Origin: Ignavibacteria bacterium
GTDB taxonomy: Bacteria > Bacteroidota > Ignavibacteria > Kapaibacteriales > Kapaibacteriaceae
NCBI GenBank assembly: GCA_013204605.1
Contig: JABMNI010000024.1
Coordinates: 1-55,848, forward strand
Reading direction: 5' to 3'
DNA length: 55,848 nucleotides
Numbering within the stretch: the stretch's first letter is position 1; the number at the start of each line of letters is the position of its first letter. The notes below the pieces were generated by a model. That model was not told the origin of the DNA and made no database searches. It saw only the letters and a program-made list of their open reading frames with translations. Both the position numbers and the translations under genes were made by a program. Shown piece after piece: positions 5,353 through 14,400 of the stretch.

Positions 5353-8300
5353 TTATCTTACTACAGATAGCATGGTGCTCAAAACTTGCCCATTGCTAAC
5401 CAACTGCAAGGTATACGTTCCTGTTGCAAGTTGACCGATTGAAACCTGCACCTGACCATTAGCATTTTGCGCCGGAATAACTGAGCGTAACACCTCAGCC
5501 CCTTGACTATTTCTAATGATTATCGACGCGCTTGAATTCAGTTGTGGAATAGTAACGTTAACAAACTCAGAAGCAGGCTGTGGATGAATTGCAAGCAGTT
5601 TACCATTCAAAGCTGGATCATCATTTACTCCGTTAGGACCAACTACAATTGAAGCTTCTTCCGTAGTTGAAGTGCCGCAAGCTGATTTAATTACGCACTG
5701 GTACTTACCGGCATCGGTCTGACTTACGGATTTTATTGTTATCACAGGAGCTTGAAATTCCGAACCTGGCAACACAGTTCCGTCATGCTTCCATTCAAAT
5801 CGCATGTCTTGACCACGAGCCTCAACACCCAACACTACATCAACACCGTTTGCAACACTCTGTGATTTTGGTTGAACGGCAATTATTGGCTCGGCGGCCA
5901 CTTCAACCATTACCGCACTACTAGTTACAGCGGCGCAGTTGTTTGTAATCACTACGTCATAGCTTCCGGCATCGGTAGTTTGTGCGGCAGCAATCGTTAA
6001 CTCCAGCCCTGTGACACCGCTGATTGGAAGACCATTCTTGCGCCATTGCACAGTAACTGAACTACCAAGTGCATCGAACTTCAACTTGATTTCCTTGTCG
6101 GGACAACTTGTGATTGGCTCCGGTGCAGAAACCACTGTGGGCGGTACCAGGATGTTTAGAGCTGTAGCGGTAGACACTTCATGACCATGTGCCGTGCGAA
6201 CTCTGAATTTACACATCGCATCACCTGGTACTTCAGCTGGAATAATGTAATTAAACGACTTCGATTTGATTTTTGAACCAATTTCCGTCCAGGTAGTACC
6301 ATTGTCTTGAGAAAAATCGACCGCATACTCTTCAGTACTTGCCAGCTCACTTGTTGACCAGCGCACGGAAACTGATTTTTCACGGCAAATCGGATCTATT
6401 GGCGCTGGTCCATTATACGTAACTAAACCTGAAGCCCATTTTGCAACAAAGGCATCGCCAGCTCCCTTAAGGGGAGACCCAGGAAATGAAGATTCAGTTC
6501 GTCCTGCAATGAAGTTATCTCCTAAAGCATCTTTCACGATTGACACGGGATAGTCATTACCCAACCATCCAACAAAGGTTGACTGTTTCACCTCTTCTAC
6601 AGAAAACTTTGTGACAAAGCCATCAAATCCACCAAACTGATTGTAGTTCGCGCCGGCGCCAATAACTGGGAAATCTGAACTATTCGTGTGTCCAGTTGCA
6701 ACAACTACATTGTTGGCATCAAGAACAGCGGATGTGATAAAATCATCGCCTGTGCCACCCAAATAGGCTGCCCCACGAAGCTTTAAGCCATCTTTGCTCA
6801 ACACGCCCAAAAACCCATCTGCTCCACCTACATACGGCGAGTTAGGCAGAGTAGCCAAATTTGGGGACCTAGTTTGACCCACAAAGTAAACCGATCCTTC
6901 TGCATCCGCAAAAACATCGGTCGCAACGTCATCTTTAGTTCCGCCGAAATACGTGGAGAATACTAACGCGCCAATTGAATTGAATTTCACAACTACAGCA
7001 TCGGAAGTACCTCCATTGTAGTCTACGTCATATGAATTGACCCCGGTTTCTTCCCAATGGTCATACGTATAGTATCCATCGCCAGGAACAAAAACTGCTG
7101 TCTTAACGGGAAAAGTTTCAAATTGATTGGAGTTCGTCGAGCCACATACAAGAATAGCAGAATTCGCATCTAGTGCTACATTCGTGAAGAAGTCATCATC
7201 TGGTCCACCAAAAAAAGTGAAGTAGGTGATGTTCAGCATCTTGGCGTGTACGAATACAACAAATCCATCACTCTTGCCATTGTTGGCGTTCTTGTGGCCT
7301 GGCACGTTTGTAATTCCACTAGTAGAATTAGTAGAACCTACAATAACTGCTAAATCCGAAGGATTTACTATAACTCCAGTTGGACGGTCTTCTTTATCCC
7401 CTGCCAAATACATCCCGGCAATCTCAGTAGATAAATCAGCCGACAATAACAACGCAAAACCATCCACCGTTCCTGAATAAGTCTGGCCCATAGTAGTTCC
7501 CTTCACAGGGAAATCAGCCGAATTTGTTTCGCCGACAGCCCAAACCTCACCTTTAGAATTCAATGCGATATCTCGCACCCGCTCATTTTTAGCGCCGGTG
7601 ATATACGTCCAGTGTTTTACAGTCTTCAAATCCGGTCGAACAACAGCAATAAAACCGTCTTCACCAGCACTGCCAGTGGTGTTCAAGCCGCCGGTTGGCA
7701 CAACGAAATCAAACGAAGTTGTCCAACCACATACCACAATGTCACCATCTTTATTGATTCGCATTGCCGTAACACCTTCATCGGCACCGCCGCGCAACCC
7801 AAGCACAGCAACTACAGGGTCGATTGTAAGGGCCTTGCCCATATCTCGATTTGCTACGTTAAAACCAAACTCATTGGAAACTACAGTACTCGAAGTTTTT
7901 CTTGTATTCGATGCCACATCCTGGTACGAAATAATCCCAGTCATAGTAAACTCACCTAGCGAGGTTGTGCATCGTATCCCGTTGGCAGTTGCGTTGACCG
8001 TCTTTGCTCCCTTTACCGCGAACAACGGGTTCGGCACGCGCGTCCCTGCATCGGCGTGAACGTTGTACCTAATCTGGTAGCCTTCCCACACGTATTCAAC
8101 ATGGATGCCCTTCAAAACATTTCGCACGGTAACAGTAGATGCTGTTTGTAGGGGGCTTTCCCCGGCGCCCGAAGTAAGAATGCTGACGGTAGGCATATCA
8201 GAAGACTTTGTTAGTATAACATCCTCCGACCCTTTCGAGCCAACAACGCTCAAACGAACCTTCTGTGTCATTACCACGCCCGTAGCATCCTTCAGCCTCT

Positions 8301-8478
8301 GATCGATGATCATTCCCGTTTTCGTAATCCAGATCATGGAATTTGGAGTAGCTGCACCGTATAAAACCTCCGACGGCCACCGTCCATCATTGCCCACAAA
8401 AACGTGAGGTTTTGGAGTGCCAAAAGCTGCAATACAAGTTGTTGCAAGTATTGCCATCAAAACGTATAAATGTCTCAT
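5353..8478 (-). CDS. large secreted SBBP-repeat / Ig-like protein with T9SS-type C-terminal domain
   Basis: A 1041-residue extracellular protein with a signal peptide at residues 1-20. An N-terminal domain (HVFVGNDGRWPSEVLY, then MIWITKTGMIID) resembles the module that commonly precedes SBBP repeats. From about residue 220 to 690 there are repeated SBBP propeller units of the type GG-x-DD-x-x-x, with strands such as GDIVVCGWTTS and VYFVGQTRS. Ig-like modules follow (QWRKNGLPISGVTG and FEWKHDGTVLPGS, each followed by DAGxY). The last 75 residues (HPQPASEFVNV, then IIIRNSQGAEVLR, then TGTYTLQLVSNG) look like a type A T9SS sorting domain. The role is probably surface adhesion or binding. No enzyme motif is seen. 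Confidence 0.85.
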   Translation of the reverse strand: MRHLYVLMAILATTCIAAFGTPKPHVFVGNDGRWPSEVLYGAATPNSMIWITKTGMIIDQRLKDATGVVMTQKVRLSVVGSKGSEDVILTKSSDMPTVSILTSGAGESPLQTASTVTVRNVLKGIHVEYVWEGYQIRYNVHADAGTRVPNPLFAVKGAKTVNATANGIRCTTSLGEFTMTGIISYQDVASNTRKTSSTVVSNEFGFNVANRDMGKALTIDPVVAVLGLRGGADEGVTAMRINKDGDIVVCGWTTSFDFVVPTGGLNTTGSAGEDGFIAVVRPDLKTVKHWTYITGAKNERVRDIALNSKGEVWAVGETNSADFPVKGTTMGQTYSGTVDGFALLLSADLSTEIAGMYLAGDKEDRPTGVIVNPSDLAVIVGSTNSTSGITNVPGHKNANNGKSDGFVVFVHAKMLNITYFTFFGGPDDDFFTNVALDANSAILVCGSTNSNQFETFPVKTAVFVPGDGYYTYDHWEETGVNSYDVDYNGGTSDAVVVKFNSIGALVFSTYFGGTKDDVATDVFADAEGSVYFVGQTRSPNLATLPNSPYVGGADGFLGVLSKDGLKLRGAAYLGGTGDDFITSAVLDANNVVVATGHTNSSDFPVIGAGANYNQFGGFDGFVTKFSVEEVKQSTFVGWLGNDYPVSIVKDALGDNFIAGRTESSFPGSPLKGAGDAFVAKWASGLVTYNGPAPIDPICREKSVSVRWSTSELASTEEYAVDFSQDNGTTWTEIGSKIKSKSFNYIIPAEVPGDAMCKFRVRTAHGHEVSTATALNILVPPTVVSAPEPITSCPDKEIKLKFDALGSSVTVQWRKNGLPISGVTGLELTIAAAQTTDAGSYDVVITNNCAAVTSSAVMVEVAAEPIIAVQPKSQSVANGVDVVLGVEARGQDMRFEWKHDGTVLPGSEFQAPVITIKSVSQTDAGKYQCVIKSACGTSTTEEASIVVGPNGVNDDPALNGKLLAIHPQPASEFVNVTIPQLNSSASIIIRNSQGAEVLRSVIPAQNANGQVQVSIGQLATGTYTLQLVSNGQVLSTMLSVVR

Positions 8479-8645: not shown

Positions 8646-9848
8646 TCATTCAGGCAAGGGAATTCCGCGGGTTTCCCTGGCCCACCGTAGGGTAAAAAGG
8701 CCAATTAAATACGCTGCCGAGAAAACAAACATAGCATTATGGTAGCCATTCAGCAGAGGCACCAATACCCCCATAAAAACCACGGCCACTACCGTTAGGA
8801 GTCTTCCCGTATTGAAACTGATTCCGGTAGCGAAAGCTCGGATTGATGTAGGGAATAGCTCCGTAATGTAGGCACTAAGCACGCCCTGATTTAGGCCTAT
8901 AAAAATGCTGAGTAAAAAAGTAAGGCTGAATAGCAGTAGTCCAGGTTGTAATGGTATCAAGAATACCAACGCTGTAACCGAAAAGCATCCAACGTACCCA
9001 ATGGAGGCGGCTCGGCGGCGGCCAATTGCGTTCGATACGAAGCCGCTGATAAAGCCCCCTACCACACTTCCTCCACCCAACATCATGTTGGTTATTGAGC
9101 GGTTGTGCTGCGCTTGGATTTGGGTTGAAATACTGCCTATCCAGGTTGGCATCCATACAAAAACGGCCCACAAGCCCACTAACATGGAGCCGAATAGCAT
9201 GGTTGCAATGGCAAGGTCTTTACGATGGTTTTGATCAAACACCGATACCTTGGTGGGAAGTTTAGCTACCGCAACTTTGCCCCAAAGTTCACTTTCCTTA
9301 ATGAAAAACTGGACCGCGAACACCAGCAGAACCGTTACGCCACCAACCAGATACGCTGTGCGGAAATCGGGCACGTTAGCGCCAATAATCCCCGATAAAA
9401 TGAATCCAACGGGGAAGGCGTTGATCAAGATTCCAACTACACGCGCGCGATTGCCGTTAGCCCAGGCCTCCGAAACCATTACGGCGGTAAGTAATAGAAT
9501 GCTGCCGGCACCGGCACCGGTAATTACACGAATGGCGATGAGTTGTTCAACACTTTGCACGAAACTTGTGGCTACAATTCCTAGGGTACACGTTGCCACG
9601 CTGAGAAGTAACGCACGTTTGCGTCCAATTTTGTCGCCCAACATTCCTAGCAACACAGCTCCCACTGCCCACCCCAACAAGAATGCTGCGCCGGCGGCCG
9701 ATCCTACTTGTGCAATAGTTGCTCGCTCTGAACTACCGGTTAGTTCTTTAACGATCAGCGGCAGATATCCGCTAAACAATGTAGCGGCAACTCCGGCACT
9801 AACGGTTGAAAGCCAGCTGATTGCGTACAGCACGTAGCGTTGGTTCAC
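8646..9848 (-). CDS. MFS transporter
   Basis: A 400-residue integral inner-membrane protein with about 12 hydrophobic segments in two halves. The loop between helices 2 and 3 carries the MFS motif A (GMLGDKIGRKRAL). A weaker copy, GFVSNAIGRRRA, occurs in the second half. The N-terminus (LSTVSAGVAATLFSGYLPLIVKEL) and overall layout resemble sugar or organic acid:proton symporters of the SHS/AAHS type. The substrate cannot be read from sequence. It is divergent from the B12-riboswitch gene, with the start codons about 300 bases apart. The riboswitch is on the other strand, so it should not control this gene. Confidence 0.85.
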   Translation of the reverse strand: MNQRYVLYAISWLSTVSAGVAATLFSGYLPLIVKELTGSSERATIAQVGSAAGAAFLLGWAVGAVLLGMLGDKIGRKRALLLSVATCTLGIVATSFVQSVEQLIAIRVITGAGAGSILLLTAVMVSEAWANGNRARVVGILINAFPVGFILSGIIGANVPDFRTAYLVGGVTVLLVFAVQFFIKESELWGKVAVAKLPTKVSVFDQNHRKDLAIATMLFGSMLVGLWAVFVWMPTWIGSISTQIQAQHNRSITNMMLGGGSVVGGFISGFVSNAIGRRRAASIGYVGCFSVTALVFLIPLQPGLLLFSLTFLLSIFIGLNQGVLSAYITELFPTSIRAFATGISFNTGRLLTVVAVVFMGVLVPLLNGYHNAMFVFSAAYLIGLFTLRWARETRGIPLPE

Positions 9849-9910
9849 TTGATCCTAGAGTAATGAACTGCAAATATAGAATAGTGTATTTTCGTAGCCT
9901 ATTATTCAAT

Positions 9911-10081
9911 TGTGGTTGCACCATGTGGTGCATTAAAATGGGAAGCAGGTGAAAATCCTGCGCGGTTGCGCCGCCGTAAGGGCAGACGAATTGCACGTGT
10001 TCGATTAATCGAACAACCACTGGCTAAAGCTGGGAAGGTAGTGCAAGGAGAATGAAGCCCGAGCCGGAAGACCTGCCACAG
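9911..10081 (+). promoter_or_regulatory. cobalamin (B12/AdoCbl) riboswitch aptamer
   Basis: The conserved core elements occur in order: GGTGAAAATCC (from 9948), GCCGCCGTAAG (9970-9980), the B12-box region ACCACTGGC (about 10016-10023) followed by GGGAAGG, and finally AGCCCGAGCCGGAAGACC. The closing P1 helix pairs TGTGG (9911-9915) with CCACA (10076-10080). These are the signature blocks of the cobalamin riboswitch family. When B12 is abundant such elements normally shut off the downstream gene, here the secreted propeller at 10148. Confidence 0.96.
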
Positions 10082-10094
10082 TATCCTAACATAT

Positions 10095-10140
10095 TGGTCA
10101 AACTCTGACCACCGCGCTGCGCAAACAGCGTCAGAAAGGA
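10095..10140 (+). promoter_or_regulatory. riboswitch expression platform: alternative hairpins and Shine-Dalgarno
   Basis: Two mutually exclusive hairpins can be drawn. One is TGGTCA-aactc-TGACCA (10095-10111). The other uses CTGA + CGCTG (10105-10119) paired with CAGCGTCAG (10126-10134). The second ends directly against AAAGGA (10135-10140), which is seven bases before the ATG. This fits translational control by masking the ribosome binding site. There is no U tract, so transcription termination is less likely. Confidence 0.6.
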
Positions 10141-10147
10141 TTTCGAC

Positions 10148-11428
10148 ATGCGTCGCATTGTCGCTATTTTATGCACTTCTATGGTGCTAACATCAATTGG
10201 TTTTTCAACCCCCATCACCGCATCGGAAACCGTTGCAACACCCCCGCAAGCCGTTACGGTAGTGCCTCAGGGCGACGTTGTGCATGTGTTCTGTAACCGT
10301 ACGGATGCGAATTTCGACGACGTACAGGACGCCGGCGATAGTCCTGCCGCCTGGTTGATTGTTGATGCTAAAACTAAGATGGTTTTGAGTTCCATGAATT
10401 TTCCGTGGGCTAATGTTGTTGCTTCACGTCCGGCGTTGTTGAAGGATGATTTGTATGTTTTAGTAAATGATTCTGTTCACAATTACAGCGTTTCGAATAT
10501 GAGTTTGAAACGAACGAAGTTCGTTGGCACCTGTGCGGCGTTGAGCCTTACCATGGACGGCAACTATTTAGTTACGAGCTATCGCCCGAATTTTGTCGAC
10601 CCAGGAAAACTACGCGGCTACGCTACCTCCGATCTTTCTCGCACTTCCGAATTCGCAGCCGGCATTAACGTTCAACAAACCTTAGAAATTAATTTCAACG
10701 ATACCTTTTTTTCGTACACATTGAATGAAGGAAGTTTTGGAAGCGAAGATGGTACACTTCAAATGACCCGATCTGATGCTCCAGATGGCAACGACACCGT
10801 TATTGCAACGGGCGGATTGTTAAATCACATGTGTCCAAGTTCAGATTCATCTCACGTATATGTAACCATGACGGGCACACACGAAGTTGCAGAAATCGAT
10901 GTGGCTCTCGGCGTGGTTAGCCGCAGAATCCCAACGCTTACCACCGGATACGATGGACCTCGCGAGTGCTTGGTTCATGACAACCGTTTGTTCGTGTCGA
11001 CGTTTTCCGGTGACGTACGAATTTTTGATATAGCTGATGGCGCTCTAGTTGGTAAGATTTCCCTGTCAGCAAAACCAGAGGGGATTGCAATCGTGAATAA
11101 TGAGCTATGGGTAACTAGATCCTTCGAGTTGGATGGGTACGGCGCGGAAATCAATATCGAAATCTACCCGTTGAATTCAACTACTAGCATTTCAGCATCA
11201 AATTCTTCTACTCAAAATCGCAGCGGAATTCTTGTAACCAACAATGTAATTTCTGTTCCCGAATTTAGTGGGAACAGCAACGTGCATGCAGTATCCAGCC
11301 TAGGCAAGAGTTACAGTTTGAGTATTGATTCTTCCGGATTGATTGATTTAAAGGGGCTAATCCCCGGTGTGTACGTGCTGCAATCCCAAAAGAAAAATCT
11401 TACATTGAGTTATCAGCCAATTCATTAA
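10148..11428 (+). CDS. B12-regulated secreted YncE-like beta-propeller (putative surface cobalamin-binding protein)
   Basis: A 426-residue protein with a signal peptide (MRRIVAILCTSMVLTSIGFS). A propeller built of YVTN/YncE-like blades follows, for example SSHVYVTMTGTHEVAEIDVA, RLFVSTFSGDVRIFDIADG and PEGIAIVNNELWVTRS. The last 70 residues (VHAVSSLGKSYSLSI, then GLIDLKGLIPGVYVL) resemble a T9SS sorting domain. It is the first gene behind the cobalamin riboswitch and has a good ribosome binding site. In Bacteroides the B12-controlled surface propeller BtuG binds cobalamin and hands it to BtuB. The blade pattern here is similar, but there is no lipobox and no BtuB neighbour. Fold and regulation are well supported. 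Cobalamin binding is inference. Confidence 0.72.
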   Translation: MRRIVAILCTSMVLTSIGFSTPITASETVATPPQAVTVVPQGDVVHVFCNRTDANFDDVQDAGDSPAAWLIVDAKTKMVLSSMNFPWANVVASRPALLKDDLYVLVNDSVHNYSVSNMSLKRTKFVGTCAALSLTMDGNYLVTSYRPNFVDPGKLRGYATSDLSRTSEFAAGINVQQTLEINFNDTFFSYTLNEGSFGSEDGTLQMTRSDAPDGNDTVIATGGLLNHMCPSSDSSHVYVTMTGTHEVAEIDVALGVVSRRIPTLTTGYDGPRECLVHDNRLFVSTFSGDVRIFDIADGALVGKISLSAKPEGIAIVNNELWVTRSFELDGYGAEINIEIYPLNSTTSISASNSSTQNRSGILVTNNVISVPEFSGNSNVHAVSSLGKSYSLSIDSSGLIDLKGLIPGVYVLQSQKKNLTLSYQPIH

Positions 11429-11472
11429 TCTTAACTGCTGTTCAGAAGTTTACAGAAGTTTAGTTTTGCAGT

Positions 11473-14400
11473 ATGCTATATATACTTCTCTTGCTAAGTT
11501 CAGTCGCGATTAGTACGGCTCAATACTCACCTACTCCAACGTCTCAAAAATTGGCTTTAGATTTCAAGGCTCTACATGCTAGGTGTGTAGGGCCTTTTCG
11601 CGCTGGCCGATCACTTGCCGTAGCGGGGCATCCGGATCAGCCCCTTACTTATTATTTCGGAGCCACGGGTGGTGGCGTGTTTAAATCGGAAGATGGGGGC
11701 GATACCTGGCGCAGTATAAGCGATTCGAATTTTACTGCGGCGAGTATTGGTGCGATTACCGTTGCGCCTTCCGATCCGAACGTGATTTATGTGGGCACGG
11801 GTGAAACTGATATTCGTGGTAATATTTCGCCGGGCGATGGAGTTATGAAAAGCACGGATGCAGGTGTGACGTGGAAGCATTTGGGGCTGAACCAAACGCA
11901 GATGATTGCAGACATTGTAGTGCATCCGACCGATCCCAACCTAGTTATGGTTTCGGCCATGGGTCAGATTTTTGGAGCGAACCCCGAGCGTGGCGTGTAT
12001 CGAAGCACAAATGGTGGTGAGAGTTGGAAACAAGTTTTGTTTCGAAATGATTCTACCGGTGCATTGACGTTAAAAATGGATCCGCTTAATCCGCGCATTA
12101 TATATGCCTCACTTTGGCAGGCGTACAGAAACGCGTATAGTCTGTCATCGGGCGGTGCCGGTAGCGGCTTATTTAAAAGCACCGATGGTGGCGAAACGTG
12201 GAAAGAACTAACAAAACAACCGGGAATGCCAAAAGGTACCATTGGTAAAATTTGCGTTGATGTTTCTCGCGCGCAACGGAACTTGATTTGGGCCATGATT
12301 GAAAACGAGAATGGCGGTTTGTTTAAGAGTGTCGATGCCGGAAACTCGTGGAGCCGTGTTAGCTCCAATAACGACATCAAACAGCGTCCGTGGTACTTCT
12401 CGCACGTTTACGCCCATCCCACCGATGCTAACGTTGTGTATGTTTTGAATGTGGGTATGCATAAAAGCATCGACGGTGGCGTGAACTTTACGGGAGTGCG
12501 CACAAATCACGGTGACCATCACGATTTTTGGATCGATCCAAAAAATCCCTCGCGTATGATTCTGGGCGATGACGGAGGTGCCGTGGTAACTACCGACGAC
12601 TGCCGGCATTGGACCGAGGATGATATTGCAACCGCGCAATTCTATCACGTAAGTGTAGATTCGCGCTTCCCTTACCGTCTGTACGGCGCTCAGCAAGACA
12701 ACTCAACGTGTTCCATTCCTAGTAGAATAATTGGTGGTTGGAGCATTGATAAAAACGACTGGTACTCGGTTGCCGGATTTGAAAGTGGTTATGTAATTCC
12801 TCACCCTACCGATCCCGACATTACCGTGGGCGGCAACTACTCCGGCTACATCGGCAGAAAAAGTCAGTTACTCAACCAAGAGCGCGATATAAGCGTGTAC
12901 CCCAACAATCCAATTGGTGAGGGGGCTGGCTTGCGCGGTGAAAGATTTCAATGGACGTTTCCAATACTGTACTCACTTCACGATCCAACCATACTTTATA
13001 CGGCCTCGCAGCACGTGTGGCGCAGTTCAAACGAAGGGCAAAGCTGGACAAAGATCAGTCCAGATTTAACACGCAACGATTCAACAAAACAGGTTGCCTC
13101 CGGCGGACCCATTACGAAGGACAACACCGGAGTTGAAGTTTACAACACCATCTTCACGTTAACAGAATCTCCAACTGAACGCGGAGTGTTGTGGGCCGGC
13201 AGTGACTGTGGCAAGGTGCACGTTAGTCGCGATAGCGGTACAACGTGGACCGATATAACACCAAGCGGTTTACCCGAATCCATGATCAGTATCATCGATG
13301 CCTCGACGTTCGACAACGGCACCGCCTTCATCGCCGTAAACAGATACAAACACAACGATGCTAAACCATACATTTTCAAAACATCGAACTACGGAGCATC
13401 TTGGCAAAAAATCACAAAGGGAATTCCCGACGGTTCGTTTGTTCGCGTAGTCCGCCAAGACCCCTTCCGCAAGGGTCTGTTGTATGCCGGAACCGAACGC
13501 GGTCTGTTCATTTCTTTCGATGAGGGGGCTTCGTGGAGCAAGTTTATGCTGGATTTGCCCCTTACTCCAATTCACGATTTGGTGATACATCCTACCGAAC
13601 GTGATTTAATTGTTTGTACTCATGGTAGGTCGTTTTGGATTGTAGATGATCTTACACCACTGCATCAATATCAACCATCAACAAAATTTTTGACGGCTTA
13701 TGCGCCGCGTCACACCTACCGCGTTAACGGCGGATCGTGGAGCTCACCTACAATGTCTGTAGGAGAAAATGCTCCCGCTGGCGTGTTGTTGCATTATGCG
13801 CTTGCCGATACAACGCAAAGCGAATTGACCATCGCCATTCGCACTGTTGCCCGTGACTCCGTCATTACCTTTTCAAGTAAAAAAGATCTCAAAGGCGAGG
13901 CGTACAAGGTTGACAACAACTTTTACAAAGACTCATTGTTCCGTCCAAACAGTCATGCGCCCACTGTGCGAAAGGGGCTTAACCGGTTTGCATGGAACAT
14001 GGAATATCCGCCGGCCGAAGAAATCGAGAACATGTTATTGTGGGGTGGTGGCGTAGATGGGACACGAGCAATGCCTGGGCTGTACACCGCAACTATTGCT
14101 GTTGGCATGGACACGCAAACGGTGAAATTTGAAATACGAATGGATCCACGCTTAAAAGTTTCGATGTCAGACCTGAAAGCTCAATTTGATTTTCATACCA
14201 TGGCGAACAGACGATTGACTGAAATTCACAAAACCGTGAAACGAATTCGAAACATCAGCAAACAATTATCAGTTGCAACGGACCGATTGAAAGATCTCGA
14301 TTCGACAACCATAAAGCCCCTTACAAAACTTTCAAAAACTATTACGGATTCGCTGCAGAAAATCGAACAAGAATTGGTGCAAACAAAGGCGAAGGCGTTT

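Follow-up and report, generated by a model that had tools for sequence, protein, structure and literature searches.

The results presented here point to a locus that probably encodes an extracellular cobamide-capture protein, one that is repressed by B12, exported by the T9SS and works alongside BtuB and BtuG. The locus lies in the window, the whole 55,848-nt stretch of an Ignavibacteria bacterium contig (JABMNI010000024.1) that was analyzed, and its features are collected in Table 1. In gut Bacteroidetes, BtuG was described as a lipoprotein that forms the lid of BtuB. Judged by profile alignment, the propeller encoded in the window is a circularly permuted homologue of BtuG, and it most likely acts like BtuG. 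Support for a role in capture comes from a complete and single riboswitch, the conservation of the riboswitch-propeller pair, gene order with btuB, homology to BtuG and a rotation test, as well as from the charge of the protein, a T9SS tail together with SprA, and the presence of B12-dependent enzymes without CbiC. The case is weakened by fold searches that do not single out BtuG, by upper-ligand aromatic residues that could not be mapped, and by a sorting tail that is weak when searched alone.

Table 1. Features of the riboswitch-propeller locus, in window coordinates
Feature	Position	Strand	Basis
Cobalamin riboswitch aptamer	9896..10094	+	Rfam RF00174; only cobalamin riboswitch detected in genome
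P13-like hairpin, putative expression platform; candidate kissing partner of loop L5	10114..10131	+	Leader folds; 24/27 leaders
Shine-Dalgarno-like AGAAAGGA	10133..10140	+	Sequence; abuts 3' side of hairpin
T9SS-type secreted, circularly permuted BtuG-like beta-propeller (predicted), 426 aa	10148..11428	+	ORF, profile against BtuG structures, rotation test, structure model
Signal peptide region, residues 1-25, no lipobox	10148..10222	+	Sequence
Propeller N-terminal half, residues 24-181, probable counterpart of BtuG C-terminal half	10217..10690	+	hhalign; ends GINV/GINP = BtuG GLNP
Propeller C-terminal half, residues 182-345, probable counterpart of BtuG N-terminal half	10691..11182	+	HMMER, 182-340 to 46-215 of 8blw_B
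C-terminal T9SS type A sorting domain-like beta-sandwich	11219..11425	+	Model, family profile, TIGR04183 in relatives
Sortilin/VPS10-BNR propeller protein, 1054 aa	11473..14637	+	Pfam PF15902, 1.3e-33; 44 nt after propeller gene
PAP2-like membrane phosphatase, 209 aa	14639..15268	+	Assigned by eye

The aptamer matches its Rfam model with 97.3 bits (gathering score 31.5; cmscan, E 4.3e-23), and model positions 1-189 are all covered. This match bears out the complete cobalamin riboswitch that a preliminary description of the same DNA had placed ahead of the propeller gene, although the riboswitch starts 15 nt further upstream than the position given there (9911). It is the single cobalamin riboswitch match in the whole 2.69-Mb genome, which is listed as 100% complete. 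In class I cobalamin riboswitches, loop L5 forms a kissing loop with hairpin P13. The hairpin that follows the aptamer in the window has the stem GCGCUG/CAGCGU and the loop CGCAAA, and lies 16 nt ahead of the start codon. Of 27 leaders, 24 have a post-aptamer hairpin with a loop starting CGC; the best-scoring stem for one leader (L061) may be another hairpin. Within the window's family, 13-26 nt usually separate the end of the hairpin from the start codon; the distance is 89 nt in one exception and 41 nt in another, for which a different stem may have been chosen by the scan. Since this hairpin and its CGC loop recur with stem sequences that vary, the leader anatomy appears to fit an L5-P13 kissing loop governing translation. 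A search of 9700-11600 gave no terminator-like site. A direct pairing of the L5 loop AAAUCC with GGAUUU at the Shine-Dalgarno exists in the window, but relatives do not conserve it and it was not relied on.

Throughout the order, the riboswitch and the propeller gene are kept as a pair. In a survey of 60 relatives, including Candidatus Kapaibacterium and Ignavibacteria MAGs, the propeller was found in 50 and a cobalamin riboswitch in 54. By coordinates, 47 of the 50 propeller-bearing genomes have the riboswitch immediately ahead of the propeller gene and in the same orientation. The three exceptions are one genome with the two on separate contigs (G049) and two in which no riboswitch was found (G052 and G056). 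Several propeller-less genomes (G024, G033, G040 and G036) have the riboswitch ahead of a gene for a DUF5074/BtuG-type lipoprotein. In a search of 296 genomes from the phylum, the propeller family profile (A2) was matched over its full length in the window's order and, outside it, only in G178, a genome belonging to a different order of the class; the other matches cover mainly the BtuG-like half and are proteins of ~350-380 aa that correspond to ordinary BtuG. Two relatives carry a second cobalamin riboswitch in another context. That of G008 (L067, G008:C3:130201-130446) precedes the class Ia ribonucleotide reductase alpha subunit, and that of G031 (L083, G031:C1:10850-11093) precedes a 780-aa ORF similar in size to the reductase subunit of G008.

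The profile of the propeller family is closest to BtuG among proteins of solved structure. The best PDB matches are BtuG1 (2e-24), the archaeal surface-layer protein 1l0q, BtuG2 (2e-13) and BtuG3, with E. coli YncE (7e-5) ranked behind all BtuG structures. YncE and generic YVTN/NHL propellers share the overall fold of the window protein, whose model matches E. coli YncE with a Z of 30, but by profile the window protein is far nearer BtuG. To our knowledge, YncE has no riboswitch or BtuB linkage. A plain YncE-like propeller that lies behind a riboswitch by chance was rejected, given that the pair occurs in 47 of 50 genomes and that the profile prefers BtuG. Searches by fold with the propeller model (Foldseek and VIA) matched all seven-bladed propellers alike, with E. 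coli YncE and Leptospira Lp49 at the top and BtuG absent among the best 50 matches listed. The identities of the BtuG and BtuB structures in the PDB are as given in PMC10404256.

The alignment to BtuG is swapped. With HMMER, residues 182-340 match 46-215 of BtuG1 (8blw_B), whereas residues 14-181 match 212-376, and both swapped segments appear against BtuG1 and BtuG2 alike. In the rotation test, the propeller core was rotated at 30 points and each version was aligned to the profile of BtuG lipoproteins from the same order. The native order scored 154 over 168 columns; the peak, with the start at residue 185, scored 215 over 303 columns. This optimum is sharp, lying at 175-190 with the score dropping on either side, and true BtuG proteins used as a control peak unrotated. 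An independent split, in which propellers from outside the window's family were compared with BtuG of the window's family, peaked at 181, where the gain was smaller (132 vs 117). The C-terminal GLNP and N-terminal CEGLW of BtuG meet mid-chain in the propeller, at AGINP ... LNEGxFG. The propeller N-terminal half aligns best by hhalign with columns 219-338 of the mature BtuG-like profile, scoring 61 vs 50.6 for the next register, so its equation with the BtuG C-terminal half is the better fit by a modest margin. Some relatives encode doubled proteins with two permuted propellers sharing one tail. These were rejected as permutation intermediates because both halves are already permuted. No paper joining BtuG with circular permutation was found in a literature search.

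BtuG2 makes 13 hydrogen bonds to the corrin, all from blades 1-4 (PMC10404256). The strongest conservation in the propeller family (EGxFG, GDTxNH, GPRE and S-T-Y/F) lies in the half that matches these corrin-contacting blades. No residue-by-residue mapping onto the propeller was obtained for the aromatic upper-ligand residues of BtuG (Trp194, Trp272, Tyr316 and Tyr335). The net charge of the propeller protein without its signal peptide is -16, compared to a reported -18 for BtuG2 (PMC10404256).

The propeller protein carries the predicted export signals of a T9SS substrate, not those of a lipoprotein. Its ORF begins with ATG, and the first 20-25 residues (MRRIVAILCTSMVLTSIGFSTPITASE) resemble a cleavable signal peptide with no lipobox cysteine. 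Cysteines occur only at 9, 49, 129, 229 and 274, with none right after the signal peptide. The N-terminal lipobox cysteine and lipoprotein export signal (LES) of BtuG (PMC6143338) were looked for and are absent. The AlphaFold2 model, computed from the 29-member family alignment (A2) with a mean pLDDT of 89.2, places the propeller at residues 24-345 and, beyond a weak linker, a beta-sandwich of its own at the C-terminus (~358-424). Positions 353-420 of the family profile match the solved T9SS C-terminal domain 8glj (E 1.3e-4), TIGR04183 is matched by 17 of 29 family members, and the genome encodes the T9SS protein SprA (875 bits). The protein qualifies as predicted T9SS type A cargo by its sorting domain and by the machinery of its genome. 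The preliminary description of a 426-residue propeller with a signal peptide and without a lipobox thus holds. The T9SS-like C-terminus that it proposed is upheld by the family profile, TIGR04183 and the modelled sandwich, but not by the Por_Secre_tail models, which do not recognize the tail of the window protein searched singly. Elsewhere in the window, 5353-8478 on the minus strand encodes a 1041-aa secreted protein with an SBBP propeller repeat, Ig domains and a T9SS tail.

The gene directly downstream of the pair is btuB in most of the order's other families, a synteny that had been proposed as a check together with conservation of the pair itself. Families f2 (G023, G039, G032 and G051) and f6 (G027) have the order riboswitch, T9SS propeller, TonB receptor, a ~290-aa protein (c1) and a lipoprotein. 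In families f4, f8 and f10, and in G030 of f9, the propeller is followed by the TonB receptor alone. In G178 the riboswitch precedes a doubled propeller, c1 and BtuB. The receptor profile has BtuB1 of Bacteroides thetaiotaomicron as its best structure (8blw_A, 1e-87), followed by BtuB2, BtuB3 and E. coli BtuB. The lipoprotein is canonical BtuG, since among solved structures its profile matches BtuG1 best (2.8e-47, over the full length), along with BtuG2/3. Structurally, the c1 model comes closest to the BtuH domain that BtuG1 carries as a fusion (8blw_B 390-660, Z 13.3; 158 residues, 22% identity), ahead of the next match at Z 10.5. A T9SS tail follows this domain, and c1 has no DUF4465 Pfam match. 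In several genomes of the window's family the c1 ORF starts with a short cysteine-rich stretch, CCGSxCRHCPY (L134:8820-9908, L137:8133-9242, L140:7230-8261, L142:8156-9202 and similar), which resembles a small zinc-binding protein joined to the N-terminus of c1.

Neither the window nor the window's family has btuB next to the propeller. In this family BtuB, c1 and BtuG lie together, in the window's genome on contig C22. The btuB gene (G000:C22:817-2721) scores 515.6 bits, compared to ~61 bits for the next receptor in the genome. Between btuB and btuG, L131:2724-3590 encodes a 289-aa T9SS-tailed protein with a predicted fold closest to that of the BtuG1 BtuH domain (Z 13.3), and which by its model is probably a second T9SS-exported B12-binding protein. 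No riboswitch was found before this btuB up to an E of 5, where the only matches were two sub-threshold ones to eukaryotic snoRNAs. Gene order across the order indicates that an ancestral operon is split in the window's family, with the riboswitch staying with the propeller. The absence of BtuB noted previously is therefore true of the locus but not of the genome, where another operon holds btuB, the lipoprotein gene btuG and a BtuH-like T9SS gene; a lone capture protein in a BtuB-less genome was rejected on this ground. The proposal of a B12-capture protein of this lineage with a different mode of export gains support from the conserved pair, the downstream btuB and the best PDB matches to BtuG. 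BtuG had been likened to the propeller in role. A similar role is still the likely one, but the two are also homologous, and the permuted protein occurs beside canonical BtuG and does not replace it. Downstream of the propeller gene, the sortilin/BNR gene is found in about half of the loci of the window's family, and the PAP2-like gene follows it, or the propeller directly, in most. Both genes probably belong to the same riboswitch transcript as the propeller.

The window's bacterium needs cobamides and probably imports them, as MetH and methylmalonyl-CoA mutase were found in its genome and CbiC is absent from it. A FecCD/BtuC permease gave no match in 32 of 40 genomes searched, including that of the window. 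DUF6580 membrane proteins are encoded in 56 of 60 relatives, and the window's genome has a copy at G000:C60:72720-73223. In G055 a DUF6580 gene (L202:3971-4633) is directly behind a cobalamin riboswitch and is followed by a c1-like gene, and in G050 a second cobalamin riboswitch lies, by position, next to a DUF6580 gene. DUF6580 is a candidate inner-membrane cobamide transporter. A literature search found no paper on DUF6580.

BtuG1-3 of B. thetaiotaomicron (eLife 2018, PMC6143338; Nat Commun 2023, PMC10404256) and the window protein are seven-bladed propellers of one homologous family with B12-riboswitch control and strong negative charge. Surface export is expected of the window protein, and linkage to btuB is seen in most other families of its order. 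Unlike BtuG, the window protein is permuted and has a T9SS sorting tail and a plain signal peptide instead of a lipobox and LES; the propeller of its family is apart from btuB, an ordinary lipoprotein BtuG coexists with it, and doubled versions occur in some relatives. It is not classed as BtuG because the BtuG blade order was found only after rotation at residue 185, and because both the lipobox and local btuB linkage are absent. The btuB-partner gene of the order likewise encodes a protein resembling the BtuH domain, which forms the C-terminal domain of BtuG1 (mBio 2022, PMC8941943; PDB 8blw chain B 390-660). However, this protein is T9SS-exported and not lipid-anchored, and it is a neighbor in the BtuB operon, distinct from the propeller.

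When cobalamin is sufficient, the aptamer would close and the L5 loop would dock on the P13 hairpin beside the Shine-Dalgarno, turning translation off. When cobalamin is scarce, the 426-aa protein would be made, exported by Sec and carried across the outer membrane by the T9SS via its C-terminal domain. The mature protein would be a seven-bladed BtuG-type propeller with a circularly permuted chain, in which the half corresponding to the corrin-binding blades of BtuG would be at the C-terminal end, just ahead of the sorting domain. Its most likely function is to bind cobamides on the cell surface and hand them to BtuB, supplementing BtuG as the lipoprotein lid. In the window's family the capture protein would have kept the riboswitch, with btuB, the BtuH-like gene and btuG elsewhere without a recognizable riboswitch. 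Binding, export and hand-over to BtuB are inferred from these features.

Alternatively, the propeller may be a surface scaffold or adaptor of the B12 regulon that has kept the fold but lost the pocket and, for example, docks BtuB or BtuG without binding cobamides. Another role is conceivable since a canonical lipoprotein BtuG is already with BtuB in the genome, and such a role would agree with the unspecific fold searches and with the low identity to BtuG (~16% in the rotated profile alignment). However, the conserved EGxFG, GDTxN, GPRE and S-T-Y/F of the corrin-contacting half align with the same motifs in BtuG1, the negative charge resembles that of BtuG2, and the propeller is nearly always the first gene of the riboswitch, making a scaffold without a ligand quite unlikely. 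A protein that does bind B12 could instead be shed or borne on vesicles as a diffusible trap, a protein 'cobalophore', and not serve as a donor that stays on the cell and feeds BtuB. Some T9SS type A cargo is set free and some is held at the surface, the propeller has no lipid anchor, and the tandem-doubled forms of relatives would raise binding capacity. The shared operon with btuB in most other families argues for a donor at the cell surface and leaves the diffusible trap rather unlikely.

It is also conceivable that no permutation took place, and that the C-terminal half shares ancestry with the first blades of BtuG while the N-terminal blades arose by independent blade duplication. Propeller blades are repeats, the alignment in native order is already significant over its 168 columns, and the two registers of the N-terminal half score not far apart. 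Against this, rotation adds 61 score units and aligns 303 of 322 columns at a sharp optimum, the BtuG ends meet in the chain as AGINP (GLNP) and then LNEGxFG (CEGLW), and both swapped segments are seen with two BtuG proteins. Independent duplication thus seems very unlikely. The preferred interpretation is still a permuted BtuG homologue that captures cobamides.

More broadly, and tentatively, the order may have built a T9SS-exported suite for B12 capture, comprising a permuted, sometimes doubled, BtuG and a BtuH-like protein beside lipoprotein BtuG. In one family the riboswitch would serve the capture protein alone, with the transporter operon lacking a recognizable riboswitch, and inner-membrane import would occur via DUF6580 replacing BtuCD. 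If the assignment as a capture protein is true, B12 capture by the BtuG fold would reach further and be more versatile than the gut system suggests, extending to an uncultured, free-living order with another route of export, and secreted micronutrient-binding proteins would join the known jobs of the T9SS. As a naturally occurring permutant, the propeller would also serve to dissect B12 binding and release by BtuG. The permuted propeller, the BtuH-like protein and DUF6580 are named targets in a lineage that needs B12 and lacks a synthesis marker.
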